From Clostridiales bacterium (GTDB lineage: Bacteria > Bacillota > Clostridia > Christensenellales > Aristaeellaceae): a stretch of 36,857 nt of DNA. Each line of letters opens with the position of its first letter. Within the stretch, counting starts at the first letter, position 1. Below, in pieces: positions 17,841-36,503 of this stretch. The stretch covers positions 1 through 36,857 of the forward strand of contig JAILIE010000046.1 in assembly GCA_024695415.1 (NCBI GenBank), given 5' to 3'. The position numbers and the translations under genes were made by a program. Below the pieces are notes generated by a model. That model saw nothing but the letters and a program-made list of their open reading frames with translations. It did no database searches and was not told the origin of the DNA.

Positions 17841-17846
17841 GGAACC

Positions 17847-18695
17847 ATGCTGACTGACGCTTTTCTTTCCCGGCTGGACACGCTGCAGCTGGCGGTCCGC
17901 GGGCGCGCCCGCGGCGGAGCCGGGGGCACCCGGCGCTCGGCGCAGACGGGCTCGTCGGCGGAGTTTTCCGATTACCGGGAGTATATTCCCGGGGACGATA
18001 TCCGCCGGATCGACTGGAACGCGCTGGCGCGGTTTGACAAGCTGTTCCTGAAGCTGTTCATGGAGGAGCAGGAGTCCGCGGTCACGATTCTGCTGGACGC
18101 CAGCGCCTCCATGGCGGAAAAATGGGAACTGGCCCGGCAGGCGGCGGAGACCGCCGCCTACCTGGCGCTGACCGGCGGGGACCGGCTGCGGGTATACTGC
18201 CTGCGGGAGGACGGAAACCGGATGTCTCCCGTCCTGTCCGGCCGTCCGGCTTACGCGCGGCTGTGCCAATTCCTGGACGCGTGCGAACCCGCCGGCGAGG
18301 GATGCCTGGCGGAAGCGGTCCGGCGGGTGGACGGCCTGCGCAAGGGACTATGCTTTGTCATCAGCGACTGCTACGAGGAAGAGGGAATCGGCGGTACGCT
18401 GGATTACCTGCGTTATTGCAAACAGGAGTGCGGGGTGATCCAGCCCCTGTCAGCCTTTGAGATGGATCCGGAGCTGGACGGCGCGGTGCGTCTGGAGGAC
18501 AGCGAAAGCGGCCGGAAGGTGGAGATCCTGGCGGACCGCGCCGTGATCCGGGATTACCGGAAGACACTGGAGAGGTTCCTGGACGAGACCCGCGGGGAAT
18601 GCTTCCGCCGGGAAGTGCCGTACATGCTGCTGGACGGCCGGAAGAACTTCGGGGAAGAGATTATTCCGCTCCTGGTTGAAAACCGGTTTGTCTGA
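17847..18695 (+). CDS. DUF58 (vWA-like) protein partner of MoxR
   Basis: This 282-aa protein has the DUF58 hallmark FSDYREYIPGDDIRRIDW starting near residue 40, followed by LARFDKLFLKLFMEEQE. The vWA-like fold then shows LLDASASM (DxSxS) and later CFVISDCYEEEG. It lacks the N-terminal TM segments that many DUF58 proteins have. The start codon ATG at 17847 is 6 bp after moxR stops, and TAAGGA overlapping that stop serves as ribosome site. Such proteins are expected to work with MoxR; the biochemical role is not established in general. Confidence 0.92.
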   Translation: MLTDAFLSRLDTLQLAVRGRARGGAGGTRRSAQTGSSAEFSDYREYIPGDDIRRIDWNALARFDKLFLKLFMEEQESAVTILLDASASMAEKWELARQAAETAAYLALTGGDRLRVYCLREDGNRMSPVLSGRPAYARLCQFLDACEPAGEGCLAEAVRRVDGLRKGLCFVISDCYEEEGIGGTLDYLRYCKQECGVIQPLSAFEMDPELDGAVRLEDSESGRKVEILADRAVIRDYRKTLERFLDETRGECFRREVPYMLLDGRKNFGEEIIPLLVENRFV

Positions 18696-18752
18696 GCAGA
18701 CATGCCGGGGATTGCCCCGGAAACCCTGAAAACATCTGATTGAGGATTGACT

Positions 18753-20318: not shown

Positions 20319-22960
20319 GTTTCGAGTTTGCCCATCCCCTCCGGCTGCTGCTGATTCCGCTGTGCGCCGCGGTGATCGCCGCGATTGCGCTGATCCGGCG
20401 GAGCCGCAGCCTGAAGGAAAAAGTATCGCATATCCTGCGATACATCATCGTCATCCTGGCCGTGCTCGCCCTGAGCGGCATGAGTCTGATGACCGCCAGC
20501 CCGGACCGGGCCGCGTGGCTCGTGGTGGACGTGTCCGCCTCCGTGAACCAGGAGGAAAACCTGACCCTGGCCCGGCAGGCCCTGGAAGCGTCCGGGGAAG
20601 GCCGGCGCAACGGCGTGATCGTTTACGGCCGGAACGCGGCCGTGGAGCGGGCGCTGTCGGAGCATCCCGCGCTGCGGGAAATCTACAGCCGGATCGACCG
20701 GGACGGCAGCGACCTGGGTGAAGCCCTGGAACTGGCGGCGGCCCTGCTGCCGGCGGACGCGAACGGCGGGATCGCCGTGATCAGCGACGGGCTGGTCACC
20801 GGAAGCGAGGAATACCTGACAACCAACCGGGGCATTCCGGTCAATACGCTGAAGACGGAACGCACCGCCGGGCCGGACGCCCAGGTGACGGATGTTTCCG
20901 TACCCGCGTCCCTGTATAGCGGCCAGAAATACACCACGATGGTGACCGTGCATTCGAACACGGCCGGGGAAGCGACCCTGGCGCTGACGGAAAACCACGG
21001 GGAAACCCGCACGCGCACCGTGACGCTGCGAAAAGGGGAGAACACCTTTGCCTTTGAGTCCGTCGCCGCTTCCGGCGGCGTGATTCCCTGCGAGGCGCGG
21101 ATCATCCTGCCCGGGGACACGGTCTCCGCCAACGACATGAACGGCGCCTACACGACGGTAACCGGCGGAATCAGCGTGCTGATCGCCGAGGGCCGGAGCG
21201 GCGAGGGCGAGGAACTGCGGAAAATGCTGGAGAGCGTCTCGATGAGCGTCCGCGTGATTCCCGCGTCCATGATCAGCGAGGACGCGGCGGAACTGTGGGC
21301 GTACCACGCGGTGGCGCTGGTCAATGTCGACGCGGACCAGCTGACGGAAGGGCAGATGGACGCGCTGGACCGGGCGGCCCGGGAGACAGGAGTCGGCATC
21401 GCGGTATTCGGCGGCGACAGCAGCTATGCCCTGGGCGGTTACCGGGGCAGCGCGCTGGAGAAAATGCTGCCCGTGACGATCGACGTGCGCAATAAGCTGG
21501 ACCTGCCGACGACCGCGCTGGTGCTGGCGATCGACAAGTCCGGTTCGATGATGGACGGATCCTGGGGCGTGACCCGGCTGGAGCTTGCCCGGGAGGCGGC
21601 CTGCAGCGCGCTGGAGGTGCTGAACGAGCGGGACCAGGCCGGCGTGATCGCCTTTGACGACACCGGGAAATGGGTGGTGACCCTGCAGAACGTGACGGAT
21701 GTCGCCGCGATGCAGAACCAGGTCCGCACAATCCGCCTGGGCGGCGGAACCGCGTTCTATTCCCCGATGAAGATGGCCCTGGAGGCGCTCCGCGGCGCGA
21801 ACGCGCAGTATAAGCACGTGATCTTCCTGTCTGACGGTGAGGCCGGGGATACGGGATACCAGGACGTCGCCCGCGAAATGGCGGACGCCGGCATCACGCT
21901 GACCACGGTGGCCGTCGGCGACGGCGCGGATTACGCGGGACTGAAGCAGCTGGCGGAGACCGGCGGCGGGCGGATGTATGCCGCGGGTCCCTTTGACAGC
22001 CTGCCGAAGATCTTTACCAAGGAAACGATGATGATTTCCGGTTCCTATGTACAGAACCGGACCTTTACCCCGGCGGTGACGGACGCCTCCATGACGGATT
22101 TCGACGGCTTCCCGGTGCTGACCGGATACCTGGCGACGACGGAGAAACCGCTTGCCACGGTTTCCCTGTGCAGCGACCGCCAGGATCCGATCCTCGCCTG
22201 GTGGCAGTACGGCGCCGGAAAGGTGGCGGCCTGGACGAGCGACGTGCGGGGCGGATGGACCGCGTCCTTCCTGAACTGGGACGGGGCCGCGGAATTCTTC
22301 GGAGGGATCATTTCCTGGATCCTGCCGGCGCATGACGCCGCGGGCGAGTCACTGCTCGCGGACGGAAAGCTCCGCTATGTGTCCAACGCGGCGGAGGATA
22401 TCCTGGCAGAGGCTTCCCGGGCGGAGGCGCGGATCGTCCGCCCGGACGGAAGCACGCAGACCGTCATGCTGGAACAGACGAGCGCCAGCGGATTTGAGGG
22501 AGAGGCGGATACCGCGCTGCCCGGAGCCTATTCCGTACGGATTACGCTGCTGGACCGGCAGGGGCATGAACTCCTTTCCGCGGACAGCGGCGCGGTGGTT
22601 TCCTGGACCCGGGAGTACGACCTGCGCGGCACCGAGGACGGACAGCTGGAACGCCTGAGCGCGGAAACCGGCGGACAGGCGGAAGGGGATCCCGCGAAGC
22701 TGCTTTCCTTCCCGGATACCGCGGCGCGGAAACGGAAGGAACTGACGGGCCCGCTGATGATTCTCGCGGCGCTGATCTTCCTGTTTGACATCGCCCAGCG
22801 GCGTCTGGACTGGATCCGTGAACCCGCGGAAAAGCCGGCGGCCGAAAAGAAGCCGGAACGGAAGGAAAAGAAGAAGCCGGAAATGGCGGAGAAGACGGAA
22901 CAGGGACCGCAGGCGGCGGACGTCCTGTGGCAGAACCTGCAAAAGAAGAAGAGATTGTAA
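20315..22960 (+). CDS. Membrane protein with two vWA domains and amidotransferase-like region
   Basis: The 881-aa protein begins with two TM segments (about 8-26 and 42-60). A first vWA domain follows with DVSAS (72-76) and GIAVISDG. A beta-sandwich region comes next, then a glutamine-amidotransferase-like stretch (YHAVALVNVDADQLTEGQMD, GIAVFGGDSSYALGGY). A second, canonical vWA domain starts at DKSGS (407-411), with IFLSDGEAGD downstream. A C-terminal TM (GPLMILAALIFLFDIA) precedes a Lys/Glu-rich cytoplasmic tail. The ATG at 20315 overlaps the upstream stop by 4 bp, and GGGGAGGGG lies just upstream. It closes the cluster; a new promoter overlaps its stop codon. Confidence 0.82.
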   Translation: MSFEFAHPLRLLLIPLCAAVIAAIALIRRSRSLKEKVSHILRYIIVILAVLALSGMSLMTASPDRAAWLVVDVSASVNQEENLTLARQALEASGEGRRNGVIVYGRNAAVERALSEHPALREIYSRIDRDGSDLGEALELAAALLPADANGGIAVISDGLVTGSEEYLTTNRGIPVNTLKTERTAGPDAQVTDVSVPASLYSGQKYTTMVTVHSNTAGEATLALTENHGETRTRTVTLRKGENTFAFESVAASGGVIPCEARIILPGDTVSANDMNGAYTTVTGGISVLIAEGRSGEGEELRKMLESVSMSVRVIPASMISEDAAELWAYHAVALVNVDADQLTEGQMDALDRAARETGVGIAVFGGDSSYALGGYRGSALEKMLPVTIDVRNKLDLPTTALVLAIDKSGSMMDGSWGVTRLELAREAACSALEVLNERDQAGVIAFDDTGKWVVTLQNVTDVAAMQNQVRTIRLGGGTAFYSPMKMALEALRGANAQYKHVIFLSDGEAGDTGYQDVAREMADAGITLTTVAVGDGADYAGLKQLAETGGGRMYAAGPFDSLPKIFTKETMMISGSYVQNRTFTPAVTDASMTDFDGFPVLTGYLATTEKPLATVSLCSDRQDPILAWWQYGAGKVAAWTSDVRGGWTASFLNWDGAAEFFGGIISWILPAHDAAGESLLADGKLRYVSNAAEDILAEASRAEARIVRPDGSTQTVMLEQTSASGFEGEADTALPGAYSVRITLLDRQGHELLSADSGAVVSWTREYDLRGTEDGQLERLSAETGGQAEGDPAKLLSFPDTAARKRKELTGPLMILAALIFLFDIAQRRLDWIREPAEKPAAEKKPERKEKKKPEMAEKTEQGPQAADVLWQNLQKKKRL

Positions 22961-23937: not shown

Positions 23938-23953
23938 ACCATGTATGGTTGAG

Positions 23954-23978
23954 CGGGCCTTTGGGCCCGTTTTTTTTG
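23954..23978 (+). terminator. Rho-independent terminator
   Basis: CGGGCC (23954-23959), loop TTTG, GGCCCG (23964-23969), followed by a run of nine T residues. This ends the transcript of the secreted protein gene. Confidence 0.92.
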
Positions 23979-24070: not shown

Positions 24071-24099
24071 TTGACATTCCGCAGACGTTGCACTAATAT
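24071..24099 (+). promoter_or_regulatory. Sigma-A promoter of the glycan locus
   Basis: A perfect TTGACA (24071-24076), 17-bp spacer and TAATAT (24094-24099). It is the strongest promoter match in the window. Transcription would start around 24106, within the operator described next. Confidence 0.85.
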
Positions 24100-24104
24100 G
24101 TGCG

Positions 24105-24118
24105 TGTAAACGTTTGCA
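24105..24118. promoter_or_regulatory. LacI-family operator overlapping the start of transcription
   Basis: TGTAAACGTTTGCA is a near-perfect palindrome centred on CG, the usual form of LacI/GalR-family operators. Placed at about +1 of the lacI promoter, it suggests repression of the regulator and, by read-through, of the locus. The same form is also bound by CcpA-type regulators, so the binder is not settled. Confidence 0.65.
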
Positions 24119-24161: not shown

Positions 24162-25175
24162 ATGGTCAAGCTCAAGGACATTGCCGAAGCGTGCGGTGTT
24201 TCCGTTGCCACGGTTTCCCGGGCGCTGAACGGCCTCTCGAACGAGAACCGGGAGCGTACGGCTTTTATCTGCCAGAAGGCGCGGGAAATGGGATACTATC
24301 CCAACGCCGCGGCGAAGACGCTGAAAACCAGCCGGTCCAACAATATCGGCATCCTTTATGAGGACCGGATGAACCATGAATACTTCAGCTCCCTGCTGGA
24401 GGAACTGCGCCGGAACGCGGAGGCGCGCGGATATGACCTGACCCTGATCGGCAACGAGCGGGGCGGATCCGACGCCAGCTACTACGACCACGCGCGGCGG
24501 CGGAACCTGGACGGGGTGATCGTGATCCAGGCGGACTTCGAATCGTCCAACGTGATCCGGCTCGCGACCAGCGCGATCCCCTCCGTGATCATCGACCATA
24601 TTTATGAGGGCTGTGACTGCGTGGCCAGCGACAACCGCGTCAGCATGGAACGCCTGGTCCGCTACGCGTGGAGCCGGGGGCACCGCCGGATCGCCTTTAT
24701 CGCGGGCGAGCGCGGAGCCGTGACCCGGGAGCGCCTGGCCGGTTTTTACAAGGTCTGCGCCGAACTCGGGATCCGGGTGCCGGAAGGCTTCGTGGTCGAC
24801 GGGCGTTTCCATGATCCCGCCGGCTGCGCGCAGATCATCCGCCGCCTGGCGGCGGGGGAGGAAAAACCCACCTGCATCCTGTGCCCGGACGATTTCAGCT
24901 GCCTGGGCGCGATGTGGGAGCTGAAGGAAAAGAACCCGGAGATCATGAAGGACCTGAGCCTGATCGGATTCGACGGAATCCGGATGGGCGGGATGATCCA
25001 GCCCCGGCTGACCACTTACCGCCAGAACGCGGAAAAGATCGCCGCGGAAGCGATCACCCTTCTGACCGAAGCCATCGAGACGCCGGAAAAGCATGTTCCC
25101 CGGCAGATCACGGTGGAAGGCACCCTCGTGGAGGGGGATACCGTGCTGAACCGCCCCGTGGCGGAAGCGAGATAA
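24162..25175 (+). CDS. LacI-family transcriptional regulator
   Basis: The 337-aa protein has the LacI helix-turn-helix at its N-terminus (VKLKDIAEACGVSVATVSRAL) and then a periplasmic-binding-protein-like effector domain. That domain starts at SNNIGILYEDRMNHEYFSSL, with DGVIVIQAD, ASDNRVSMERLVRYAWSRGH, RRIAFIAGE and CPDDFSCLGAMWEL in family order. It would bind a sugar or sugar phosphate and release the operator. The frame is open from an ATG at 24114, but 24162 is chosen because GGAGGGAGG (24147-24155) lies 6 bp before it and the DNA-binding domain starts there. It is followed by a mini-ORF and the multi-module protein with only 40 bp between, so it probably heads the operon it controls. Confidence 0.94.
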   Translation: MVKLKDIAEACGVSVATVSRALNGLSNENRERTAFICQKAREMGYYPNAAAKTLKTSRSNNIGILYEDRMNHEYFSSLLEELRRNAEARGYDLTLIGNERGGSDASYYDHARRRNLDGVIVIQADFESSNVIRLATSAIPSVIIDHIYEGCDCVASDNRVSMERLVRYAWSRGHRRIAFIAGERGAVTRERLAGFYKVCAELGIRVPEGFVVDGRFHDPAGCAQIIRRLAAGEEKPTCILCPDDFSCLGAMWELKEKNPEIMKDLSLIGFDGIRMGGMIQPRLTTYRQNAEKIAAEAITLLTEAIETPEKHVPRQITVEGTLVEGDTVLNRPVAEAR

Positions 25176-25183
25176 AGGAACCC

Positions 25184-25219
25184 ATGGAAAACCAATTCAT
25201 AAAGGAGGAGAACCCATGA
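25184..25219 (+). CDS. Possible 11-codon leader peptide overlapping next start
   Basis: ATG at 25184 opens an 11-residue frame (MENQFIKEENP) that ends in a TGA overlapping the next ATG as ATGA. AAAGGA (25174-25179), overlapping the lacI stop, lies 4 bp before it. It contains the strong ribosome site of the next gene. It may be a coupling or leader ORF, or chance. Confidence 0.35.
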   Translation: MENQFIKEENP

Positions 25220-27555
25220 AGAAATCCCTATCCATCATCCTGGCGCTGGTAGCGGCAGCCGCGATTATCGTCAGCTGCGTGTTCGGCGTGCAGAAAGGCA
25301 ACCTGCAGAAGGAATTCGACGAAGCGAAGACCGCGGCTGAATCCGCGCAGGCCCAGCTGAGCAAGGACCTGGAAGCCGCAAAAGCGGACGCTGAAAGCAA
25401 GCAGGCGGAACTGGCTGCCAGCCTGGACGCCGTGAAGGCGGAGCTGGAAGCCGCAAAAGCGGACGCTGAAAGCAAACAGGCGGAACTGGCTGCCAGCCTG
25501 GACGCCGTGAAGGCGGACGCGGAATCGAAGGTGGCCGAACTGGAGAAAAAGGCCGCCGACCTGGAAGCCGCGAAGGCGGAGGTCGAGGCGAAGCTGGCCC
25601 AGACCGAACGGAACCTGACCGCCGCGAAGAGCAACGCCTACATCATGTACGCGAACGCGGACTGGACCGTTTCCAACTGGGGCACCTACGACAGCGAGGA
25701 CGGCGCCGTGAAGGTGACGCCCGCGAAGGTTGAAGGCGAAGGCGACTATACCGTCGGCCTGGAGTTCGCCGAAGAAGCGAAGGGCCTGGCGTTCACCGCC
25801 CTGGGCATCGAGCGCGGCGAAAGCGACTTCCCCGGATATTACATCCAGATCAGGGAAATCCGCGTCAACGGGGAAAAGATCGAAGTCGGCAACGGCTACA
25901 CCTCCTCCGACGACGGCGTGACCACCCGGATGAACATCTACAACGAATGGGTCAGCGACCTGCCCTCCGACGCCCGCGCGTTTGACGGAAACCTCGCTGA
26001 GGCGAAGCCCGTGATCGTGGACAAGGAAGCCTTTGCCTCCGTGAAGACCATGGAGATCGACTTCAAGGTCCTGGCCACGCCGGTGGACTACGCCTACATC
26101 ATGTACGCCGATACCGCCTGGGCGACCCAGAACTGGGACATCACCGACAGCGAGGACGGCCAGGTCAAGGTGACTGCCGCCGAAATCCGCGGCGCCGGCG
26201 ACTATACGGTCGGCCTGGAATTCGCCAACGAAGCGGAAGGCATGGCCTTCTCCGCCCTGGGCATCAAGCGCGGCGAACTCACCTTCCCGAACTACTTCAT
26301 CACCATTAAGGAAATCCGCGTCAACGGCGAGAAGATCGAAGCCCTGGAAGGCAAGAAGGGCTACACCTCCTCCGACGACCAGGTCACGACCCGGATGAAC
26401 ATTTACAACGAATGGGTCAGCGAGCTGCCGGAAGACGCCCGCAGCCTGGACGGCGACCTGTCGAACGCGGCACCCGTGTTCGTGGACCAGGCGGCCTTCG
26501 CCAAGGTGAAGAGCATCGAGATCGACTTCAACTACTCTCCCATCAGCGCTTACCTGATGTACGCGGACGGCAGCTGGACCCAGCAGAACTGGGGTTATGC
26601 CTCCACGGACACCATGAAGGTCATCACCGCCCCGATCACCGGCGAGGGCAGCTACGTGGTCGGCCTGGAATTCGCGGAGCCCGCGGAAGGCCTGGCCTTC
26701 ACCGCGATCGGCATCAAGAACGGCGAAGCCATGCTGCCGAACTGGATCATCAAGATCGATTCCATCCAGATCAACGACGGTGAAAACATCCTCAAGGGCA
26801 TCAACTACACCAGCTCCGACGACAAGGCGGAAACCCGCGCCAACATCTTCAACGAATGGGTGAGCGAGCTGCCGGACGACGCCCGCAACGAGGAAGGCAA
26901 CCTGGCCAACGCGTCCGCGGTCGTCGTGGACAAGGAACTGTTCACCGCCGTCAGCAAGGTCATGGTCGAGTTCCACCTGGTCAAGGGCAAGGAAGCCGCC
27001 GCCGCGGCGGAAGGCGACCAGCTGACCAAGGAGCAGATCGACGAGATGCTGGCCAAGGACTACAACGCCTACATCGGCGTGCAGAGCACCAGCTATATCT
27101 TCCGCAACACCTGGGACGAAGCCAAGTACGGCCGTGATTCCCAGGACAATCCCGAATGCTTCGGCCAGCTGACCGGCTGGGACGAGGACAACAACAAGGT
27201 CAATTACGGCGGAACCTTCGCGGACGCGCTGATGACCAAGGACGGAACCTACAGCGTATCCCTGACCACCGGCGAGATGGGCTTCGGCAAGGACGAAACC
27301 TTCCGGATGCTGTTCGTCTCCACCGAGATTCCCTCCCAGCTGGTGAAGGACGGTTATGTGACGATTGAAGACGTACAGGTCAAGATCGGCGACGCCGCGA
27401 CCCAGAAGTACACCGACGTGGATACCTCCGGCGATTACGCCCGGATCATCCTGATCGACGAGTACAACCGCGGTGAGGCGCCCTTCGGCTACACCGTGCC
27501 CGGCGCGGACGCCACCATCACCGTGACCTTCACCGTCACCGGACTGACTGACTGA
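25216..27555 (+). CDS. Membrane-anchored coiled-coil protein with four tandem beta-rich modules (putative carbohydrate binding)
   Basis: The 779-aa protein starts with a hydrophobic segment (SIILALVAAAAIIVSC). The IVSC at residues 18-21 fits a lipobox, so it is either a lipoprotein or an N-anchored protein. Residues about 28-138 form an Ala/Glu/Lys-rich coiled coil with an internal 25-residue duplication. Three tandem modules begin at residues 141, 293 and 445 (152-residue period). They share AYIMYAD..W..NW, GDYTVGLEF, (A/S)ALGI(E/K)RGE, EIRVNGEKIE, YTSSDD..TRMNIYNEWV and LP.DAR. A fourth, diverged copy starts near 618. The same module forms the C-terminus of the GH5 enzyme at 32931-34721. 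I read it as an unassigned carbohydrate-binding module on a stalk; a binding function is inference. AAAGGAGGAG (25201-25210) precedes the ATG. Confidence 0.85.
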   Translation: MKKSLSIILALVAAAAIIVSCVFGVQKGNLQKEFDEAKTAAESAQAQLSKDLEAAKADAESKQAELAASLDAVKAELEAAKADAESKQAELAASLDAVKADAESKVAELEKKAADLEAAKAEVEAKLAQTERNLTAAKSNAYIMYANADWTVSNWGTYDSEDGAVKVTPAKVEGEGDYTVGLEFAEEAKGLAFTALGIERGESDFPGYYIQIREIRVNGEKIEVGNGYTSSDDGVTTRMNIYNEWVSDLPSDARAFDGNLAEAKPVIVDKEAFASVKTMEIDFKVLATPVDYAYIMYADTAWATQNWDITDSEDGQVKVTAAEIRGAGDYTVGLEFANEAEGMAFSALGIKRGELTFPNYFITIKEIRVNGEKIEALEGKKGYTSSDDQVTTRMNIYNEWVSELPEDARSLDGDLSNAAPVFVDQAAFAKVKSIEIDFNYSPISAYLMYADGSWTQQNWGYASTDTMKVITAPITGEGSYVVGLEFAEPAEGLAFTAIGIKNGEAMLPNWIIKIDSIQINDGENILKGINYTSSDDKAETRANIFNEWVSELPDDARNEEGNLANASAVVVDKELFTAVSKVMVEFHLVKGKEAAAAAEGDQLTKEQIDEMLAKDYNAYIGVQSTSYIFRNTWDEAKYGRDSQDNPECFGQLTGWDEDNNKVNYGGTFADALMTKDGTYSVSLTTGEMGFGKDETFRMLFVSTEIPSQLVKDGYVTIEDVQVKIGDAATQKYTDVDTSGDYARIILIDEYNRGEAPFGYTVPGADATITVTFTVTGLTD
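25369..25515 (+). repeat. 72-bp near-identical tandem duplication in coiled coil
   Basis: Two 72-bp copies, 25369-25440 and 25444-25515, differ by one base (AAGCAG versus AAACAG) and have a 75-bp period. They encode the same 24 residues, beginning LEAAKADAESKQAELAASLD. The near identity in DNA points to recent duplication or ongoing slippage. Confidence 0.9.
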
Positions 27556-27572
27556 CATTCTTCACTCCTCCC

Positions 27573-27609
27573 GGCGGCGCCGGCCTTCCCGAGCGGAACC
27601 GGCGCCGCC
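27573..27609 (+). terminator. Strong hairpin after the module protein; possible partial terminator
   Basis: GGCGGCGCCGG (27573-27583) pairs perfectly with CCGGCGCCGCC (27599-27609). The T-tail is weak (CTTATT). The permease gene starts 28 bp later without a clear promoter, so this may reduce read-through and keep the surface protein more abundant than the permeases. Confidence 0.55.
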
Positions 27610-27637
27610 CTTATTCCCGTCGAAAAGAGGCTGACCT

Positions 27638-29164
27638 ATGGCTGAACTAAAGTCCCGGAAACACCGGACGGCGTCGGATGTGACGGCGCCGGAGCGGGTT
27701 TCCCTGTGGGTCCTGCGGATCCTGGTCCTGCTGACGCTTTTGATGGTGTTCTTCCCGCCGTTTAACCCGGGAAGAATCTCCACACAGATCAGCGGCAACC
27801 TGACCCTGCTGACTTCCGCCACCTCCCTGTCCACCGTGACGACCAAGCTGAGCGCCTACATGGTGGAGGGCATCCGTTTTGCCCTCCGCGCCTCGGATAT
27901 GCGCCTGTCCATGCTGGGCTGCGCGATGATCCTCATCGGCGCGGTCCTCGCCGGCGCCGGCGCGTGCGTCAGCCTGGGCAACCGGAAGATGCGGCGGATC
28001 GGCGGATGGTTTCCGCCGGCAGGCGCCGCGCTGATCCTCGGCGGACTGGCGGTCAACCGGGCAGCCTATACAAGCATTGAGAATTTTGTGCGCGGCATGG
28101 ATCTTCCGGCCTCGCACATCGAGGAACACCTGAACAACCTTTCCCTCCGCTGGCCGGAATTCGCGAACAGCGCGTGGACCGCCGCGGGATGCGCGGTGCT
28201 GGCGGTTTCGCTGATCTCGCTCTTCTTCGCGTACCGGACCCGGTGCGCGGAAAACAAGGCGGAAATGGAAGAGAAGTACAAGCTCTTCATCATGTTCCTG
28301 CCGGTGCTGATCCTTTCCTTCGTCTTCGCCTACCTGCCGATCTATGGCTGGCGCTACGCCTTCTATGACGCGAAGGCCGGCGACGAGCTGACGAAGGAAA
28401 TCTTCGTGGGGTTCAACAACTTCACGATGCTGATCAACGACCCGGGCTTTTCCGCCAAGATCCTGCAGGTGCTGCGGAACACCCTGGTCATGAGCGGCCT
28501 GGGCATTGCCACCAGCTGGCTCCCGATCGCCTTCGCGATCCTGCTGGCCGAGATCCGGAGCACGAAGTTCCAGCGGACCGTCCAGACCCTGACCACGATT
28601 CCGAACTTCCTGAGCTGGGTGCTGGTCTACGCGGTCGCGCTGTCGATCTTCGCGGCGGACGGCCTGATCAACAACCTGTCGCGCCTCCTGTCGACCTCCG
28701 GTTTCACCAGTGTGGACTACCTGGCCAGCGCGGACGCGACCTGGATCAAAATGCTCCTGTGGGGCACCTGGAAGGGCCTGGGATGGAGCGCGATCATCTA
28801 TATCGCGGGCATCGCGGGGATCGACCAGCAGCTGTATGAGGCGGCAAAGGTCGACGGCGCGGGCCGCTTCCGCTGCATCTGGCATATTACGGTCCCCGGC
28901 CTGATTCCGACCTATATGGTCATGCTCCTGATGAGCGTGGCCGGGATCCTGTCCAACGGCATGGAACAGTACCTGGTGTTCTCCAATCCCTACAACGGGG
29001 ATTTCATCCAGGTGCTGGACCTGTATGTCTACAACCTCGGTATCGGAAGCAACCAGCTGTCCGTTTCCACGGTCATCGGCATCCTGAAGTCGGTGATCGC
29101 CGTGATCCTGCTCTTCGGCGCCAACGGCATCTCCAAGGCCGTACGCGGCGAGAGCATCATATAA
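27638..29164 (+). CDS. LplB-like ABC sugar permease with four-TM N-terminal extension
   Basis: Residues from about 213 (KYKLFIMFLPVLILSFVFAY) to 508 form a normal carbohydrate importer permease of the LplB type. It has the coupling-helix EAA motif at EAAKVDGAGRF (Glu401) and IWHITVPGL after it. The extra N-terminal 210 residues hold four likely TM segments (about 23-40, 91-113, 122-139, 180-199) not part of the usual fold, which is about 300 residues. It would sit in the cytoplasmic membrane and pair with the next gene, 12 bp downstream. No import ATPase is encoded in this window's locus, as is common when a shared MsmK-type ATPase is used. The ribosome site is GAGG-like and weak. Confidence 0.88.
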   Translation: MAELKSRKHRTASDVTAPERVSLWVLRILVLLTLLMVFFPPFNPGRISTQISGNLTLLTSATSLSTVTTKLSAYMVEGIRFALRASDMRLSMLGCAMILIGAVLAGAGACVSLGNRKMRRIGGWFPPAGAALILGGLAVNRAAYTSIENFVRGMDLPASHIEEHLNNLSLRWPEFANSAWTAAGCAVLAVSLISLFFAYRTRCAENKAEMEEKYKLFIMFLPVLILSFVFAYLPIYGWRYAFYDAKAGDELTKEIFVGFNNFTMLINDPGFSAKILQVLRNTLVMSGLGIATSWLPIAFAILLAEIRSTKFQRTVQTLTTIPNFLSWVLVYAVALSIFAADGLINNLSRLLSTSGFTSVDYLASADATWIKMLLWGTWKGLGWSAIIYIAGIAGIDQQLYEAAKVDGAGRFRCIWHITVPGLIPTYMVMLLMSVAGILSNGMEQYLVFSNPYNGDFIQVLDLYVYNLGIGSNQLSVSTVIGILKSVIAVILLFGANGISKAVRGESII

Positions 29165-29176
29165 GGGGGCGGGCGT

Positions 29177-31024
29177 ATGGAAAAGAGGAACGGGTTCCTT
29201 TCAAAGCGCGTCACCCTGAAAGGCTGGCAGAAGCTGCTGATCGTGGTTCTCTGCACGGCGCTGGCCGCCGCGGCCGCGTGGATCTACTGCGAGAAAATCG
29301 CGGAACCCCTGTATGTATCCACGGCCAGGACACAGGTCGCCATACTCGATACAGAAACGCTGCTCGCCTCGGGGGATTCCTCGCTGACAGTGCTCACGCT
29401 GGACATCTGCGCGGGACTTCGGGACGAACTCGGCGCTGTCGCCAGCAAGAACAAAGGCCTGTATTACCGGAGTATTTCAGACGCGCTGCAGGAATTATCC
29501 GGCAAGCTGGTCAAGCCCAAGGACCTGAAGAACATGATCAGCGTCAGCAACGACCCGGAGGACGCTGAAAACCGGACCGTGATCATCACGGTCAAAAACA
29601 GCGACGCGGAGGCGCTCCACGCGATTGCGGACGAGGCGGTCCGCCAGCTGGGCGTACTGATCTTCGGCGCGCCGGCGGAGGAATCGCAGGCGGAAACAGA
29701 GGAAACCGCGGAAGAGGGCACGCTGCGGATCCGCTACCGGGTCACCGCGGATATCTCCAGCCTGCCCGAGAAATTCCTGGGCAAAACCCTGGACCTGGTA
29801 ACTCCGGTGACCGGTTACCTGGCGGATGATAATTTCTGCCGCCGGGTGGCGGAAACCGCCGGGATTGACGCGAAACCCGCGGAAATCCGCAAACAGATCC
29901 GTTTCACCACCACATCCGAATCCGGGAAACTGAACCTGAGCGCCGCGTGGACGGACACGGAAGGCGCAAAACGGCTGGCGCAGGCGGAAGGCGAGGAGAT
30001 CGCGCGCGCGGTTTTCGGCGGGGCGTATGACCCCTGGCAGGCCAGCGTGGAAGAACCGACGGTGCTGGCGGAGCAAGTGAAGGAATGGCCGAACACCGCG
30101 GTGATTGCCGCCCTGGCGGCCCTGGCCGCGCTGGCGGTCAGCTACGCGCTGTTCTCCCAGCAGCCGCTGTTCGATACCTGCGTCGTCATCTTCTTCGTCA
30201 TCTTCACCTTCCTGTGCGTGTTCCCGTTCTATTATCTGTTCATCAACACGATCTCGGACAACAACCTGGTCGCGGGCGGACAGATCAACTTCCTGCCGCA
30301 GGGGATCCACCTGAAAAACTACGAGCGGATCCTGGGACAGGGCGAACTGAAAGACGCGCTGCTGGTGACCCTCGGCCGGACGATCATCGGCACCGTGCTG
30401 ATGGTGCTGACCTCGGCCTGGGCGGGATACCTGGTGACCAAACAGAAAATGTGGCGCCGGTCCTTCTGGTACCGCGCGCTGGTGGTGACGATGTATTTCA
30501 ACGCCGGCCTGATTCCCTGGTACACCAACATGCTGATGCTGGGCCTGACCGGGAACTTCCTGGCGTACATCATACCGGGCATGGTGGCTCCGTATAACAT
30601 CATCCTGGTCAAGACCTACATCGAGTCCATTCCCGGATCGCTGGAGGAAAGCGCCATCATCGACGGCGCGTCCACCGGCAAGGTGTTCCTGAAGATCATC
30701 CTGCCGCTGTCCATTCCGATCCTGGCGACGATATCGATCTTCGGCGCGGTCGGCAACTGGAATTCCTTCCAGGATTCCCTGCTGCTGATGAGTTCCACGC
30801 CGAACCTGTATACCCTGCAGCACCGGCTGTACATCTACCTGAACCAGACGACGAGTATCAATACCGAGCAGATTTCCGAACAGATGGCCCAGAACCTGCT
30901 GAACAACGGGATTACCACGAAGTACACGATCGCGATGATCACGATTATCCCGATCCTGCTGGTATACCCGGTGATGCAGCGCTACTTTGTCAAGGGAATC
31001 ATGCTGGGTGCGGTGAAAGGATAG
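29177..31024 (+). CDS. YtcP-like ABC sugar permease with N-terminal Wzz-like extracytoplasmic domain
   Basis: The C-terminal part, from about residue 334, is a carbohydrate permease of the YtcP type. It has the EAA-type motif LEESAIIDGASTGKVFLKI and a C-terminus KGIMLGAVKG typical of that family. The first 330 residues are extra: TM1 (19-37), an extracytoplasmic region 38-306, and TM2 (307-326). The outside region holds two similar halves. Each has a helical stretch, then a pattern like LVKPKDLKNMISV...VIITVKNSDAEALHAIADEAV, which resembles chain-length determinant (Wzz) domains. Topology fits: TM2 returns to the cytoplasm before the permease core. The total, 615 aa, is about twice the usual length. 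GGGGGCGGGC lies just before the ATG at 29177. Confidence 0.86.
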   Translation: MEKRNGFLSKRVTLKGWQKLLIVVLCTALAAAAAWIYCEKIAEPLYVSTARTQVAILDTETLLASGDSSLTVLTLDICAGLRDELGAVASKNKGLYYRSISDALQELSGKLVKPKDLKNMISVSNDPEDAENRTVIITVKNSDAEALHAIADEAVRQLGVLIFGAPAEESQAETEETAEEGTLRIRYRVTADISSLPEKFLGKTLDLVTPVTGYLADDNFCRRVAETAGIDAKPAEIRKQIRFTTTSESGKLNLSAAWTDTEGAKRLAQAEGEEIARAVFGGAYDPWQASVEEPTVLAEQVKEWPNTAVIAALAALAALAVSYALFSQQPLFDTCVVIFFVIFTFLCVFPFYYLFINTISDNNLVAGGQINFLPQGIHLKNYERILGQGELKDALLVTLGRTIIGTVLMVLTSAWAGYLVTKQKMWRRSFWYRALVVTMYFNAGLIPWYTNMLMLGLTGNFLAYIIPGMVAPYNIILVKTYIESIPGSLEESAIIDGASTGKVFLKIILPLSIPILATISIFGAVGNWNSFQDSLLLMSSTPNLYTLQHRLYIYLNQTTSINTEQISEQMAQNLLNNGITTKYTIAMITIIPILLVYPVMQRYFVKGIMLGAVKG

Positions 31025-31065
31025 GGGGGCTTTCCGATCGCCCCCCCCAGGCCCCCTTCGGCCGG
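31024..31065 (+). repeat. Structured 3'-UTR repeat element, copy 4 (short form)
   Basis: It begins at the last base of the permease stop. It keeps the second hairpin only: GGGGGC (31025-31030), loop TTTCCGATC (31031-31039), GCCCCC (31040-31045). A CCTTCGGCCGG tail follows. The loop equals that of copies 1 and 2 while the stem sequence differs completely, yet it still pairs. Confidence 0.65.
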
Positions 31066-31127
31066 TGTCTGCAGGGGAGTATCCGGAAGAACAGACAGGG
31101 AACGGAAAAATAAAGGAGGACAGACCC

Positions 31128-32864
31128 ATGAAGAAACTGACTGCGATCCTGCTGGTATGCGCGATGCTGCTGGGCGCCGGCGCGGCCCTGGCGGAAACCG
31201 GAGCGGAGACGGAGGAGCCGGCGATCCGGCTGGACGTCTACAGCCAGCTGGCGAACTATTCCGGTGTGCAGGGCGGCTGGAGCGCCGTGCTCATGAAGGA
31301 TATGTTCAACGTGGAAATCAATATCATCCCGGAACAGGACGGCACCTACGCCACCCGGATGGAATCCGGCAGCCTGGGTGACATCGTCGTGTGGGGCGCG
31401 AACGGAACCGACTACCAGAACGCCGTGCAGAAGGGCATGCTCCTGGACTGGGAACAGTTCGACCTCGGCAAGACCTACGCGCCCTATATCATGGAAAACT
31501 ACCAGGCCGCGCTGGAAAGCAACCGCTCGATCGGCGGGGACGACAAGATTCACGGCTTCGGATTCAACGTCGCGTTTTCCGCGGACGCCCACCAGTCCTT
31601 CTTCTACACCTGGGATATCCGCTGGGACCTGTACAAGGAACTGGGATATCCGGAAGTGTATGACCTGGACGATATGGTCGAACTGTTCACGCAGATGAAG
31701 GAAATCTGCCCGACGGACGAGATCGGCAACGAAACCTACGCCCTGAGTTCCTGGCCGGACTGGGATGGCAACATGGTCATGTATGTCAAGGCCCTGGGCA
31801 CCGCGTTCTACGGCTACGACGAACTGGGCTTCGGACACTATAATCCGGAGAACGGCGAGTTCCTCTCCTGCCTGGACGACGACAGCGTCTACATGGAGTG
31901 CCTGCGGTTCTTCAACAAGCTGTACCGCGCGGGACTGCTGGACCCGGGATCTTCCACCAACACCTATGACAAGATGAGCGAAAAGCTGAAGAACGGCGGC
32001 ACCTTCTGGTCCATCTTCAACTATGCCGGCTCCATGGCCTACAATACCGAAAAGCACCTGAGCGAAGGCAAGTACATGTATTCCCTGGTGCCCGAGGACG
32101 CCACCCCCATTGTATACGGCCTGGGATCCACCGGCGGAAACCGGATCTGGAGTATCGGCAACTATACCCAGTATCCGGAGCTGTGCCTGAAAATCCTGAA
32201 CTGGCTGGCGACCCCGGAAGGATCCATGACCATGTGGTACGGACCGAAGGGACTGACCTGGGACTATGACGAAAACGGCGGCATGTACTTTACCGAGCTG
32301 GGCAAACTGACTTCCAGCGACAGCTCCTACAACATGGCCGGGGTGCAGTGGACCTCCCCCTATACCGGAAAGACCTACGAGCTCAGCGGAACCTACAACG
32401 ACGGCTCCCTGCAGATTAACAACACCACCCTGTCCAAGGATATGATCAATCCGGACGGAAACGGCATCGAGACTTTCAACAAGGATACCTGGGCCTCCGT
32501 CGTGACCGCGACCACCTACCCGATCCAGGAGGACTGGCGGGAGAAGACCGGCGCGGTGCTGGCGGACGATTATATGGAATCCCGGGTGGATGAATACGGC
32601 GACAAGAAGTACGTCGTGATGCCGGATATCCCCTATGCCGAGGGAGAAAAGTCCTCCGACCTGGACCTGAAATGGAAGAACTGCGCCAAGACCGTAAAGG
32701 ATTATTCCTGGCGAGCGATCAACGCGAAGACGGACGGTGAGTTCAACTTCCACGTCAGCGAGATGAAGCGCCTTTGCGAATCCTACGGATACGCGGAATG
32801 CGTGGCATGGTGCGAGCAGGAAGCGGCCAGGATGTGGGAACTGACGCAGCAGATGGGGCAGTGA
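31128..32864 (+). CDS. Extracellular solute-binding protein of carbohydrate ABC importer
   Basis: The 578-aa protein has a signal peptide (KKLTAILLVCAMLLGAGAALA) with a type I cleavage site near ALA-ETG, and the mature protein looks like a large family-1 type solute-binding protein as used with LplB/YtcP permeases. Examples of expected patterns are EQDGTYATRMESGSLGDIVV near the N-terminus and LCLKILNWLATPEGSMTMWY later. No lipobox cysteine is present, which is unusual for a monoderm binding protein. ATG 31128 is chosen because AAAGGAGG (31112-31119) lies 8 bp before it and the signal peptide starts there; an in-frame ATG at 31065 has neither. It follows the two permeases and precedes GH5, so it is the probable ligand receptor for the products. 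Confidence 0.88.
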   Translation: MKKLTAILLVCAMLLGAGAALAETGAETEEPAIRLDVYSQLANYSGVQGGWSAVLMKDMFNVEINIIPEQDGTYATRMESGSLGDIVVWGANGTDYQNAVQKGMLLDWEQFDLGKTYAPYIMENYQAALESNRSIGGDDKIHGFGFNVAFSADAHQSFFYTWDIRWDLYKELGYPEVYDLDDMVELFTQMKEICPTDEIGNETYALSSWPDWDGNMVMYVKALGTAFYGYDELGFGHYNPENGEFLSCLDDDSVYMECLRFFNKLYRAGLLDPGSSTNTYDKMSEKLKNGGTFWSIFNYAGSMAYNTEKHLSEGKYMYSLVPEDATPIVYGLGSTGGNRIWSIGNYTQYPELCLKILNWLATPEGSMTMWYGPKGLTWDYDENGGMYFTELGKLTSSDSSYNMAGVQWTSPYTGKTYELSGTYNDGSLQINNTTLSKDMINPDGNGIETFNKDTWASVVTATTYPIQEDWREKTGAVLADDYMESRVDEYGDKKYVVMPDIPYAEGEKSSDLDLKWKNCAKTVKDYSWRAINAKTDGEFNFHVSEMKRLCESYGYAECVAWCEQEAARMWELTQQMGQ

Positions 32865-32872
32865 CATTCGTT

Positions 32873-32901
32873 CCCCTCTCCGCTGGAGAGGGGACTTTTT
32901 T
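32873..32901 (+). terminator. Rho-independent terminator between binding protein and GH5
   Basis: CCCCTCTCC (32873-32881), loop GCT, GGAGAGGGG (32885-32893), then AC and six T residues. It lies 30 bp before the GH5 start. As no promoter is clear in between, GH5 is probably reached by partial read-through. Confidence 0.9.
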
Positions 32902-32930
32902 CATCATCCAGATTTTCGGAGGAACGGAAA

Positions 32931-34721
32931 ATGAAACGTATACTCTGCGCCGCCCTGGTACTGGCGGTCCTGTGCCCCTGCCTGGCGGCCGCCGAAGGAG
33001 ATGATCCTGAGATGGACCTGAGCGGGCTGACCGCGGTCGAAATGACGCGGCTGATGGGAAACGGCATTAACCTGGGCAACACGATGGAGGCCTGCAACAA
33101 CGGGAAAAGCGGCGGAAACACCACCGCCGATCCGAAGCATTACGAAACGTACTGGGGACAGCCGGTGACCACCGCGGGCATGCTGAAGGGCATGAAGGAA
33201 GCAGGGTTCGACACCGTGCGGATTCCCGTGGCCTGGATCACGAACGCCACGCGCCTGCCGGAGGGTGATTCCACGATTTCCCCGGCGTACCTGGACCGGG
33301 TGGAGGAAATTGTGAACGATGCCCTGGACGCCGGTATGTTCGTGATCGTCAACGACCACTGGGACGGCGGCTGGTGGGGCATGTTCGGGTCGGACTCGGA
33401 GGAAATCCGCCGGAAGGCGATGGATACCTATATCCATATGTGGCAGCAGATCGCCGCGCGCTTCGCCGCGTATGACGACCGCCTGATTTTCGAGAGCGCC
33501 AACGAGGAGCTCGGCGCGCGGTTCGACGAGAATTCCCCGCTGTTCTGCCAGGATTCCATGGATCACCTGATGCCGGAAAACGAGCGCTACGCCCTGACCA
33601 ATAAAATCAACCAGGCTTTTGTCGACACCGTCCGCGCCGCGGGAGAATATAACGCGAACCGTTTCCTCCTGATCGCCGGCTACGGCACGAACATCGACAA
33701 GACCTTTGACAGCCGCTTCCGGATGCCGGAGGACAGCGCGAAAAAGCGCCTGATGGTTTCCGTGCACTACTACGACCCCTGGAACTACTGCGGCGCGTCC
33801 GACGCGGCCGGCGCGACGCCCTGGGGAAAGCGGAAGGACTATGAGGACATGTATTCCTCCCTCAGCCGGATGAAGAAATTCACAGCGGAGGGATACGGCG
33901 TCGTCATCGGCGAGTACGGCGCCCTGCCGGGCGGCGACGGGGTGATGAAGGACAACGCCGCGGCATATCATAAGGCATTCCTGGACTGCTGCGACGCGCT
34001 GGACTATACCTCCTGCCTGTGGGACTGCAGCGGCTTCTTTATCCGCCGGGAGCTGAGAATGACGAACGATGAGATGGCGGCGGTCTATGCCGGGCGGAAC
34101 GCCGCGTCCGAATCCGGAAAGGACTATTCCGCTGTTGCGCGGGCCGGGAAGGAAGCGCTGGACGCCGCCGCGGCCGCGGCGCCGGAATCCCTGGTCATCA
34201 CAGCCCATACCCCTTCAGACGGTAAATGCGTCGCCTGGATTATGTTCAACGACGGCAGCTACGGCGTGACCTACAGCGTAGGCGACGTCTACACGCCGGA
34301 TTCGATCACCCGCGGCGTCGTCCCGACGGACGCGGAGATCACCGGCGAGGGCACCTACACCGTCGCGCTCGACTTTACCGGCACGAAGCAGGGATACGCC
34401 GCGAACACCGCGTTCAGCGCCGTCGGCATCACGGACGGCGAGGACCTCTATCCCGGATGGTGCATCAACATCACCGAGCTGAAGATCAACGGGGAGCCCG
34501 TTAAGATGAAGGGACGGAACTACACCTGCTCGGATGACGGGCACTGCACCCGGACGAACCTTTTCAACGAATGGGTGGACGTGAAAAACGACCGGGGACG
34601 CGCCCGCGTGATGTTCGGCGACCTGACGGGAATTTCCGCCACGGTGCTGGACCGCGGGGCAGACTGCATGCGCCGGATCGAGACCATCGAGGTCACCTTT
34701 GCCTACGGCCCGCACAGATAA
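32931..34721 (+). CDS. Secreted GH5 glycoside hydrolase with C-terminal putative binding module
   Basis: The 596-aa enzyme has a signal peptide (RILCAALVLAVLCPCLAAA) and a GH5 catalytic domain (about 25-400). The domain shows NGINLGNTMEA, GFDTVRIPVAW, VIVNDHWDGGWW, the acid/base Glu192 in ESANEE and the nucleophile Glu328 in VVIGEYGA. This fits beta-glucanase, endoglucanase or mannanase activity; the exact substrate cannot be told. Residues about 420-595 form a separate module with GTYTVALDF, AFSAVGITDGEDLYPGW, ELKINGEPVK, YTCSDDGHCTRTNLFNEWV and IETIEVTF. It is homologous to the modules of the protein at 25216-27555. GGAGG lies 8 bp before the ATG. Confidence 0.93.
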   Translation: MKRILCAALVLAVLCPCLAAAEGDDPEMDLSGLTAVEMTRLMGNGINLGNTMEACNNGKSGGNTTADPKHYETYWGQPVTTAGMLKGMKEAGFDTVRIPVAWITNATRLPEGDSTISPAYLDRVEEIVNDALDAGMFVIVNDHWDGGWWGMFGSDSEEIRRKAMDTYIHMWQQIAARFAAYDDRLIFESANEELGARFDENSPLFCQDSMDHLMPENERYALTNKINQAFVDTVRAAGEYNANRFLLIAGYGTNIDKTFDSRFRMPEDSAKKRLMVSVHYYDPWNYCGASDAAGATPWGKRKDYEDMYSSLSRMKKFTAEGYGVVIGEYGALPGGDGVMKDNAAAYHKAFLDCCDALDYTSCLWDCSGFFIRRELRMTNDEMAAVYAGRNAASESGKDYSAVARAGKEALDAAAAAAPESLVITAHTPSDGKCVAWIMFNDGSYGVTYSVGDVYTPDSITRGVVPTDAEITGEGTYTVALDFTGTKQGYAANTAFSAVGITDGEDLYPGWCINITELKINGEPVKMKGRNYTCSDDGHCTRTNLFNEWVDVKNDRGRARVMFGDLTGISATVLDRGADCMRRIETIEVTFAYGPHR

Positions 34722-34732
34722 AAACGGACAGC

Positions 34733-34774
34733 AAAAACCGGGGAACGGTTCGGGGAAACCATCTCCCGGTTTTT
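34733..34774. terminator. Bidirectional terminator between convergent genes
   Basis: AAAAACCGGG (34733-34742) pairs with CCCGGTTTTT (34765-34774), with a smaller GGTT/AACC hairpin in the loop. The A-run on one arm and T-run on the other allow termination from both sides: GH5 on + and the GGDEF gene on -. Confidence 0.88.
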
Positions 34775-34781
34775 CTTTTCC

Positions 34782-36503
34782 TTATCTTCCGGCTTTCTTG
34801 GCCCGTTTGTCCTCGTACATCAGCGCGTCCGCCCGGGCAAAGACATCGGCGAAGCAGGTCTCTCCCTGATACCGCGCCATGCCGCAGGCGAGGACCGCTT
34901 CCCCGGTTTCCATGTGCCGGCGGTTGATTTCCTCCAGCGCTTCGATGCGCTCCTCCATATGCTCGTAGTCTGAATCCCGGGAAATGACAGCGAACTCGTC
35001 GCCGCCGATCCGGAAGACAGCGCTGTGGCGGAAGGCGTCGCAGAGCATTTCACAGGCCTGGCGGATGTAGTCGTCCCCGGCCGCGTGGCCGAGCGTGTCG
35101 TTGACTGTCTTCAGGTTGTTCAGGTCAAACACCGCGACGGCGAACTGAAGCTTTTCCCCGAGGGCGATCCGGTAATTCAGCTCGTTTTCCATATCCGTGT
35201 ATCCCAGCTTGTTCCGCACGCCGGTCAGCCCGTCTTTCCGGGCCAGCAGGCGGGCGGATTCCAGGCGCCGGTCAAATTCCGCTTCCTGCCGGACCTGGGT
35301 GTCGATGTTCTGGACGCCGACGATCAGCTGCGGGCCTTCCTTTTCCTGGACAATGGCGGCACGGAGGCGGACATGGACCAGCTGCCCCTCCATCATCAGC
35401 CGGTAGCGCATGGAAAAGGAGCCGTCCTCCTCAATCGCCCGCATGACGTTTTCCCGCGTAAAGTTATGCAGGAAAAGGTCCAGGTCCTCGCGGCAGACCG
35501 TGGAACGCGCGTTGACCGCCGAACTGGCGAAGAAATCATCCCCCTGTTTCGCCAGGCCGAGGGTTTCATAGGCGGAGGTGACGCTGTACTCGATATATTT
35601 TCCGGACTGAGGATCCACGGTATAGAAGACCGTGAAATCCCCGGCCAGCGCGATCACCCGGTTGAAGGCGTTCTTTTCCTCACGGATCCGCTCGGCGGCT
35701 TCCTGTTCCTTCATCTGCGAATCCACATCCATCACGCCGAAAACGAGGTAATTTTCGTCTTCCTCCATCCGCGTGGCCTTCATGCTCATGTAGCGGGGAA
35801 CGCCGTCCACCATCAGGCGGTAGGTGAGGGTGAAACGGCCGAACTCATCCAGGGAACGCAGGATGTTTTCTTTTGTGAACGCGTCCAGGAAATCGGACCG
35901 GTCCAGGGCATAGAGCTGTGTTTCCGCGTCCTTTCCGGCCTGGACGAAGAAATCCTCCCCGTCGCGGATGACGGTCATGCGGCCGCTTGCGGTATCCGTG
36001 CTGAACTCCGTAAAGCGGTCGTTTGCGATGTTGACGTAATACAGATAATTGTAGTCTGAGGACAGGGCGTGGGCAATCCCGGAGAAGGTGACGACCTGGG
36101 AACGCGCCTGTTCGAGGGTGGAACGCATTTCCTGTGTTTCCTGTTTGACCTGAAGCGCTTCCGTGATCTGCCGGAAAGCGCGGTCATGGCTGCGCCGCAG
36201 GAGGGCGACGCTTGCATAGCAGGCGGCGGCGCCCAGGAAGACGATGACGATCTTCACGGCGTTGACGTCGGTATACCGGAAGAATGAATGGTCTGTGGAA
36301 AAGAAGAACATGGAATAAAGAAGCATCATAACGCCGGATACCGCGCCGGGAATGACGCCGCAAGCACCGGTGAACACCACCAGCGCGGAAATCAGGATCA
36401 TGTTCGGGTTGGGTATGTTGAACCGGTATACCAGGAAGATCAGCAGGCCCGTCACGAGCACGGAAAGGCCTGTCCACATAATCTGGCTGTGTTTGTCCTT
36501 CAT
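34782..36503 (-). CDS. Membrane diguanylate cyclase with two PAS-like domains
   Basis: The 573-aa protein makes cyclic di-GMP from two GTP. It has four N-terminal TM segments within residues 8-102. A helical linker follows, then two similar PAS-like sensor domains (about 150-275 and 290-410). Both share a pattern such as [23 protein letters not shown] and [23 protein letters not shown], so they are a tandem duplication. The GGDEF domain (about 420-570) has [28 protein letters not shown] and an intact GGDEF (500-504). The RxxD product-inhibition site normally found just before GGDEF is absent (FRHS there). No EAL domain is present. It is the only minus-strand gene in the window. Start ATG with GGGAGGG about 7 bp upstream. 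Confidence 0.92.

Follow-up and report, generated by a model that had tools for sequence, protein, structure and literature searches.

The window analysed here, i.e. the whole stretch of 36,857 nucleotides, corresponds to contig C6 in an assembly of 2.16 Mb with a completeness of 80%, and its G+C content is 0.63. As listed in Table 1, its plus strand carries, in this order, the genes for a LacI-family regulator, a multi-module capture protein, two permeases, a solute-binding protein and a GH5 enzyme, separated by gaps of 40, 82, 12, 40 and 66 bases when the longest frames are considered. The start of lacI was taken to be the ATG that follows GGAGGGAGG, because the start of the longest frame (24114) falls within the operator-like sequence. 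The scan for terminator-like hairpins returned 17 sites, against a mean of 9.6 in shuffled sequences; besides those of Table 1, one is found upstream of the cluster (23951-23972). The hairpin in front of the GH5 gene is a strong one, which suggests that GH5 is perhaps produced at a lower level. Further upstream (16866-22960) lies a row of MoxR-type AAA ATPase, DUF58, BatA/VWA and VWA genes.

Table 1. Features of the cluster and of its borders (positions are those of the window)
Feature	Position	Strand	Basis
Promoter-like site TTGACA-17-TAATAT, 5' of lacI	24071..24099	+	Consensus scan, 10/12; consensus match only
LacI-type operator-like TGTAAACGTTTGCA, directly 3' of the -10 box	24105..24118	+	Pattern TGYAAACGWTTRCA conserved in relatives
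LacI-family regulator	24162..25175	+	Pfam Peripla_BP_3 2e-25, LacI 5e-10; start read from sequence
Multi-module capture protein, non-catalytic, 779 aa	25216..27555	+	Translation; no Pfam family above cut-off
N-terminal membrane helix / signal anchor, IVSC, Cys21	25216..25296	+	Read from sequence
Ala/Glu/Lys/Asp-rich coiled-coil-like stalk	25297..25626	+	Composition, weak coiled-coil family matches
Module M1	25636..26079	+	Module homology; AF2 pLDDT 97.5
Module M2	26092..26538	+	Module homology
Module M3	26548..26985	+	Module homology
Diverged fourth module M4	27058..27552	+	Profile comparison; AF2 pLDDT 97.0
ABC importer permease 1, MalF type, ~200-aa N-terminal extension	27638..29164	+	BPD_transp_1 1.9e-14
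ABC importer permease 2, MalG type, Wzz-like N-terminal domain	29177..31024	+	BPD_transp_1 1.6e-9
Secreted solute-binding protein (longest frame from 31065)	31128..32864	+	SBP_bac_1 1.2e-5, 25.9 bits versus cut-off 26
Terminator-like hairpin, binding protein/GH5 gap	32872..32894	+	10-bp stem, T run; consensus match only
Secreted GH5 endoglucanase with C-terminal module	32931..34721	+	Pfam Cellulase 3.3e-44
GH5 C-terminal module, homologue of M1-M3	34233..34715	+	Sequence comparison
Terminator-like hairpin 3' of GH5	34750..34769	+	Consensus match only

Distribution of the cluster and constancy of its gene set

A single scan of genome contigs returned 220 stretches encoding relatives of the module. 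The best 80 of these 220, which represent 78 loci, were used for the comparison of loci and make up, with the window, a set of 79 sources. These relatives come nearly all from metagenome-assembled Clostridia (among them two Lachnospiraceae records and single records of Butyrivibrio and Treponema) and, where the title of the record names a host, it is mostly a ruminant. In even samples of genomes, the module was present in 38 of 200 from the family of the window (E <= 0.001), in 2 of 391 from its class and in 2 of 398 from its phylum (E <= 1e-5 for both); one genome of each of the last two pairs is that of the window, and the other carrier is the same genome in both.

At E <= 1e-5, matches over the 79 sources numbered 75 for M4, 74 for permease 1, 72 for permease 2, 66 for the binding protein, 46 for GH5 and 42 for LacI, counts that suffer from frequent truncation of the flanks and include some paralogues (e.g. 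the permeases of L005, at 35%, and permease 2 of L044, at 23%). Only the neighbouring genes count as evidence of linkage, because the loci had been fetched by means of the module. The order of the genes varies, GH5 being inverted upstream in L046 and second in L131, and the gene set is constant. Among the frame groups listed, no other sense-strand gene family was equally widespread beside the cluster: the other large groups were read as antisense or out-of-frame readings of the cluster genes, and an ABC ATPase group was present in nine loci. The neighbours were also searched for a clue to the substrate, and no other enzyme family recurred beside the cluster.

Within the family sample (n = 200), the module was found in 36 genomes at E <= 1e-40 and an orthologue of the binding protein (>= 54% identity) in 34, with both in 33 (Fisher 4e-33, kinship among genomes being ignored). 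The exception, G032, has the orthologue and the importer without the module, and more distant importers (47-48%) are present in five further genomes of the sample. At the level of loci, L127, L128 and L129 have the importer without a catcher; the last two are 19-kb stretches from two of these five genomes, in which neither catcher nor GH5 was found. The tie of the module proteins to an enzyme and an importer, which the initial annotation had proposed, is borne out by the recurrence of the six-gene set and by the co-occurrence in 33 of 36 genomes. On the opposite strand, a membrane-type diguanylate cyclase gene (34782-36503) converges on the cluster of the window; weakly similar nearby genes were detected in 6 of the 79 sources, window included (E <= 1e-5).

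The module family and the proteins that carry it

The initial annotation had seen three copies of a repeat in the 779-aa protein and one more at the C-terminus of GH5; pairwise comparison confirmed that they are homologous, the GH5 copy with E-values from 7e-26 to 1e-28. The enzyme-borne copy, at residues 435-595, lies apart from the Cellulase match (67-367) and agrees in this respect with the definition of a carbohydrate-binding module (CBM) as a discrete module of a carbohydrate-active enzyme that is itself non-catalytic. The loop motif YTSSDD...TRxNxxNEWV contains many of the columns that vary little or not at all.

No family of Pfam-A or NCBIfam reached its cut-off over the modules of the window; the Malectin / CBM57 match (19.4 bits versus a cut-off of 23, over 19 residues) fits chance. 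Scanning 43 diverse copies singly brought up 13 families, each in one or two copies (best E 0.0024), and the profile built from them retrieved five PDB chains at E <= 10, none of them credible and none CBM-named, the best being protein yojF (E 0.48). The AlphaFold2 models were highly confident (pLDDT 97.5 for M1 and 97.0 for M4), and Foldseek gave no PDB match at E <= 0.001 for either of them, nor any in the viral structure library for M1. The top PDB matches were leukotriene A4 hydrolase for M1 (E 2.4e-3, probability 0.96, TM 0.26 over 110 columns) and cypovirus polyhedrin for M4 (E 0.021, TM 0.37). Chains of CBM2, CBM4, CBM28, CBM29 and CBM32 are among the 50 matches listed for M1, at E-values of 0.05-0.4 and TM < 0.3, which is no evidence of kinship; a distant relation of the module to a known fold may nevertheless exist. 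The claim that the module belongs to no assigned family thus held in the Pfam, NCBIfam, PDB sequence and Foldseek comparisons. Its designation as a carbohydrate-binding module agrees with its discrete position within an enzyme, but found no counterpart in sequence or fold among known CBMs. A literature search, largely limited to papers available without subscription, brought up none that was recognised as describing the module or the catcher/module cluster. The module may bind carbohydrate, and we regard it as a candidate for a new binding-module family, matching no named family in Pfam, NCBIfam or PDB, that could be of use for work on glucans.

The fourth module had been described as a diverged copy. 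Its kinship with the others rests on profiles, because pairwise BLAST with shuffles gave no signal between M4 and M1-M3; profile comparison (hhalign) links it to the modules above all shuffles. Common to both are an AYI... start, an A-x-I-x-G-x-G-x-Y-T-V core and strands separated by a short helix. The TSSDD...NEW signature, on the other hand, is lost, with D/N-EYN-like residues standing where the modules have NEW. The description is upheld at the level of profiles. Among module-bearing frames (duplicates among loci counted), the architectures were M-M-M-M4 (86), M-M-M4 (14), M-M4 (4), M-M-M (2) and single M (40); M4 is regularly present in the capture protein. Elsewhere than in the cluster, it was met with by itself in small secreted proteins (L125 8642-9334, L126 7691-8290). 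In a Lachnospiraceae catcher of 1105 aa (L080 344-3661), two extra repeats separate M3 from M4, and a membrane helix is present at the C-terminus.

A tree of 247 modules unites all 32 copies borne by GH5 in a single group, which has 34 leaves and a support of 0.995; this argues that the sharing of the module by catcher and enzyme is old. The enzyme itself scored 151.9 bits against the Cellulase cut-off of 23.5. Among solved structures, its catalytic domain is closest to GH5 endoglucanases, a beta-1,3-1,4-glucanase and xyloglucanases, the nearest PDB chains being 3zmr, 1edg, 4x0v and 2jep, which we take to be of GH5 subfamily 4 (GH5_4). Glu328, His279 and Tyr281 are kept in 34 of 34 distinct module-bearing homologues, window included, and Asn191 and Glu192 in 33 of 33, the remaining frame being cut at this site; the count was made without requiring GE[YF]G in the sequences. 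Glu192 and Glu328 are presumably, from knowledge of the GH5 family, the catalytic glutamates. The Cellulase match above cut-off and the presence of both glutamates place the predicted enzyme in GH5.

A second and longer type of GH5 (~33-36% identity), devoid of this module, is found in nine loci; both of the two that were scanned contain Big_2 domains. Its C-terminus bears another type of module in eight loci, and then Big_2 in L080. A profile of eight such C-termini (leaving out L080, whose row is out of register) gave a probability of 67.4 against module M, where 100 shuffles reached at most 3.6, and of 15.0 against M4, where shuffles reached at most 2.5; a distant relation is regarded as possible. 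The GH5 of L078 and L131 has no module at all. Conversely, a module-bearing GH5 without the cluster in the stretch read was found in L079, L081, L082 and L120 (3.4 kb for the latter).

Anchoring, import and regulation

The protein of the window begins with an N-terminal helix, followed by IVSC and by ~110 residues of coiled-coil-like sequence. Helix and coil, with a complete N-terminus, are also found in L005, L006, L008, L010, L011, L022, L046 and L070. A Cys is present at the IVSC position in five of the nine coiled-coil proteins with a complete N-terminus (window included), so that an uncleaved membrane helix appears as likely as a lipoprotein. A lipobox regular expression matched 12 of 68 N-termini, some at starts that are probably over-extended, and these matches were left out of account. 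Other relatives have C-terminal anchors: LPKTG in L039 and L068 and LPGTG in L065, each with a helix and a basic tail, QPNTG at the end of L045, and a C-terminal helix in L071 and L080. Altogether, anchors of these kinds, read by eye with a hydropathy window (the coil being deduced from composition and weak family matches), were seen in 15 of 77 distinct multi-domain frames; L009 and L015, whose N-terminus is cut, also have the coil. The remaining multi-domain frames have signal-peptide-like starts where these are readable, and no anchor was seen in them. The term 'anchored' therefore fits the protein of the window and a minority of relatives, but not most of them, and the window's own anchor is not general. 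Since several unrelated anchors are found on one conserved protein, we argue that the cell surface is probably where it works.

The homologues of permease 1 have a median length of 496 aa in the relatives, and most relatives' permease 2 is of ~300 aa. In the window, the latter has an extra N-terminal domain of ~330 residues (29177-30166) between two apparent added membrane helices, with a start resembling Wzz, the chain-length determinant of polysaccharide export; the Wzz match (4.8e-4) is below cut-off. Twelve sources, one of them the window, have related extensions (L130 being a repeat of L008), and Wzz was matched in 9 of the 11 that were scanned (best 6.3e-7). The binding protein had no solved relative at E <= 0.01. 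The window's own genome encodes four OB_MalK domains, one GH94 and two GH31. What is known of these families points to CUT1-type ABC import served by a shared MalK-type ATPase, and to intracellular phosphorolysis by the GH94 enzyme. Sharing of an ATPase has been described for MsmK (PMC12710961). The GH94 and GH31 enzymes are compatible with cellulosic or mixed-linkage glucan and with xyloglucan.

Control by LacI, as initially proposed, was supported by an operator-like palindrome, TGTAAACGTTTGCA, which stands immediately 3' of the TAATAT box in the promoter of lacI and is conserved in relatives. Upstream regions of lacI were collected for LacI matches of at least 40%, on the plus strand, with enough upstream sequence and duplicates removed. 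The pattern TGYAAACGWTTRCA was found within two mismatches in 34 of these 39 regions and in none of 780 stretches taken at random from the same loci; since the pattern was derived from the same regions, it is this contrast that matters and not the count. With three mismatches, the figures were 1 of 39 and 34 of 780. Such a palindrome, conserved at the promoter of lacI, supports autoregulation. The pattern also occurs at four further sites of the genome with at most one mismatch. Only one of these copies is exact; it precedes by ~150 bases a gene that has no relation to the cluster, which may mean that the cluster LacI is not the only regulator with this pattern. That copy is near 4885 of L143 (G000 C31:8884-8897), upstream of a reverse-strand frame which, by reading, resembles unsaturated-uronyl hydrolases and may perhaps answer to another LacI.

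Possible mode of action and comparison with known systems

We consider, with a probability of about 0.7, that the cluster is a Gram-positive polysaccharide utilization locus (gpPUL) under the control of LacI, which serves the use of a beta-1,4-containing glucan from plants and combines a surface catcher, a module-bearing GH5 and an importer. The 779-aa protein would be held in the membrane by its N-terminal helix, and its stalk would extend the three like modules and the diverged fourth outwards, where they would bind a glucan chain with avidity and retain it at the surface. The secreted GH5, by means of its C-terminal module of the same family, would bind and cut the same chain; the oligosaccharides would be imported by the binding protein and the two permeases, energised by a MalK-type ATPase encoded elsewhere, and LacI would leave its operator on arrival of a breakdown product. 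The polymer, for which cellulosic, mixed-linkage and xyloglucan are the candidates, the inducer, the binding of one chain by both proteins and their cooperation are all points that we infer. That the same polymer is held and cut, as initially suggested, is plausible, but in nine relatives the catcher is accompanied by a different type of GH5, which lacks the module, and in two others (L078 and L131) by a GH5 devoid of any.

The modules could instead bind each other or a common partner, so that the GH5 module would dock on the catcher, making of it an enzyme-retaining scaffold, cellulosome-like in effect and free of cohesin and dockerin. The presence of one module family in both proteins would fit, as would the old tree group formed by the GH5 copies, which is how a docking partner might look. 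We nevertheless hold this to be improbable: the one-module GH5 of L079, L081 and L082 comes without a catcher in the stretch read, catchers also stand beside GH5 enzymes without the same module, and tandem similar modules would seem better suited to sugar binding. About equally improbable, in our opinion, is that the modules tether their proteins to the wall polymer of the bacterium rather than to a food glycan. According to PMC4954948, CBM37 of Ruminococcus albus attaches to polysaccharides as well as to the bacterial wall, most relatives show no other anchor yet belong to a surface import system, and M4 exists alone in small secreted proteins (L125, L126); at least three copies would, however, be redundant as anchors in the versions endowed with an N-terminal helix and coil, an LPXTG-type signal or a C-terminal helix. 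That the modules are mere ligand-free spacers, like Ig-like stalk domains, for which the lack of a match to any known binding family and the frequency of all-beta folds in stalks could be invoked, is very unlikely given the concentration of invariant columns in the loop YTSSDD...TRxNxxNEWV, unusual for a spacer, and the C-terminal position of the enzyme-borne copy, where there is nothing to space.

Going beyond the glucan-capture locus preferred here, we would tentatively, and with rather low confidence, entertain an unsolved carbohydrate-binding or docking fold, common to a surface stalk protein and an enzyme, that would gather both glucan and enzyme on the cell. It would be a Gram-positive counterpart of the surface glycan-binding proteins (SGBPs) and, in its boldest form, an enzyme scaffold without cohesin or dockerin.

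To our knowledge, how Gram-positive gut bacteria without Sus-type proteins retain polymers at their surface is poorly understood. The cluster supplies a concrete and widespread catcher, whose module is small, confidently folding, expressible and testable, in gut Clostridia known almost only from metagenomes in the records found. The initial view that the system differs from a cellulosome and from Sus was supported: no cohesin or dockerin was among the Pfam matches at E <= 1 of seven proteins, and no SusC or SusD among those of the window genes scanned, an ABC importer being found instead. In both the window and its relatives, GH5, two permeases, a binding protein and LacI correspond to the definition of a gpPUL, in which a polysaccharide-degrading enzyme, a transport system and a transcriptional regulator are encoded together (PMC5320581). 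Enzyme, transport and regulator stand side by side without SusC/SusD, as in gpPULs, but the cluster adds, as a regular member, a non-catalytic multi-module capture protein. What is unusual is that this catcher is made of a module family that matched no named family in the comparisons made and is also present on the enzyme.

The mixed-linkage glucan locus of Blautia producta is another case of glucan use by a Firmicute, with a surface endoglucanase, tandem binding modules, an ABC importer and a phosphorylase. As described in PMC10318527, however, four CBM4 are carried by the GH16 enzyme itself, whereas in the present cluster a separate protein bears the tandem modules, these gave no convincing match to CBM4, and GH94 is encoded elsewhere in the genome. 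The Bacteroides SGBPs discussed in the same source are likewise non-catalytic surface proteins presumed to catch a polymer for an adjoining endo-enzyme and importer; here no TonB-dependent transporter was found, import is of ABC type, no match between the modules was found and the anchors differ. The best reading is that the catcher would work like SGBPs, without evidence of kinship. The xyloglucan locus Athe_2052-2054 of Anaerocellum bescii also has ABC genes for glucan oligosaccharides and no ATPase, but the account in PMC12710961, as far as available to us, mentions no capture protein and places the key xyloglucanase in another locus. Rumen GH5 endoglucanases with unusual modules, CBM65 and CBM37, are known from Ruminococcus albus (PMC4954948); the profile search with the present module brought up no CBM-named chain among PDB sequences.

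A few oddities were met with among the relatives. In L017 (9076-11146) and L023 (8989-11002), the catcher gene is broken up over a number of frames, being either decayed or misassembled. Secreted proteins of a second class, 361-666 aa in length and encoded outside the cluster in L113 (7997-10962), L114 (7124-8917), L115 (7651-9534) and L116 (8095-10095), combine diverged modules with further sequence to which no family is assigned.
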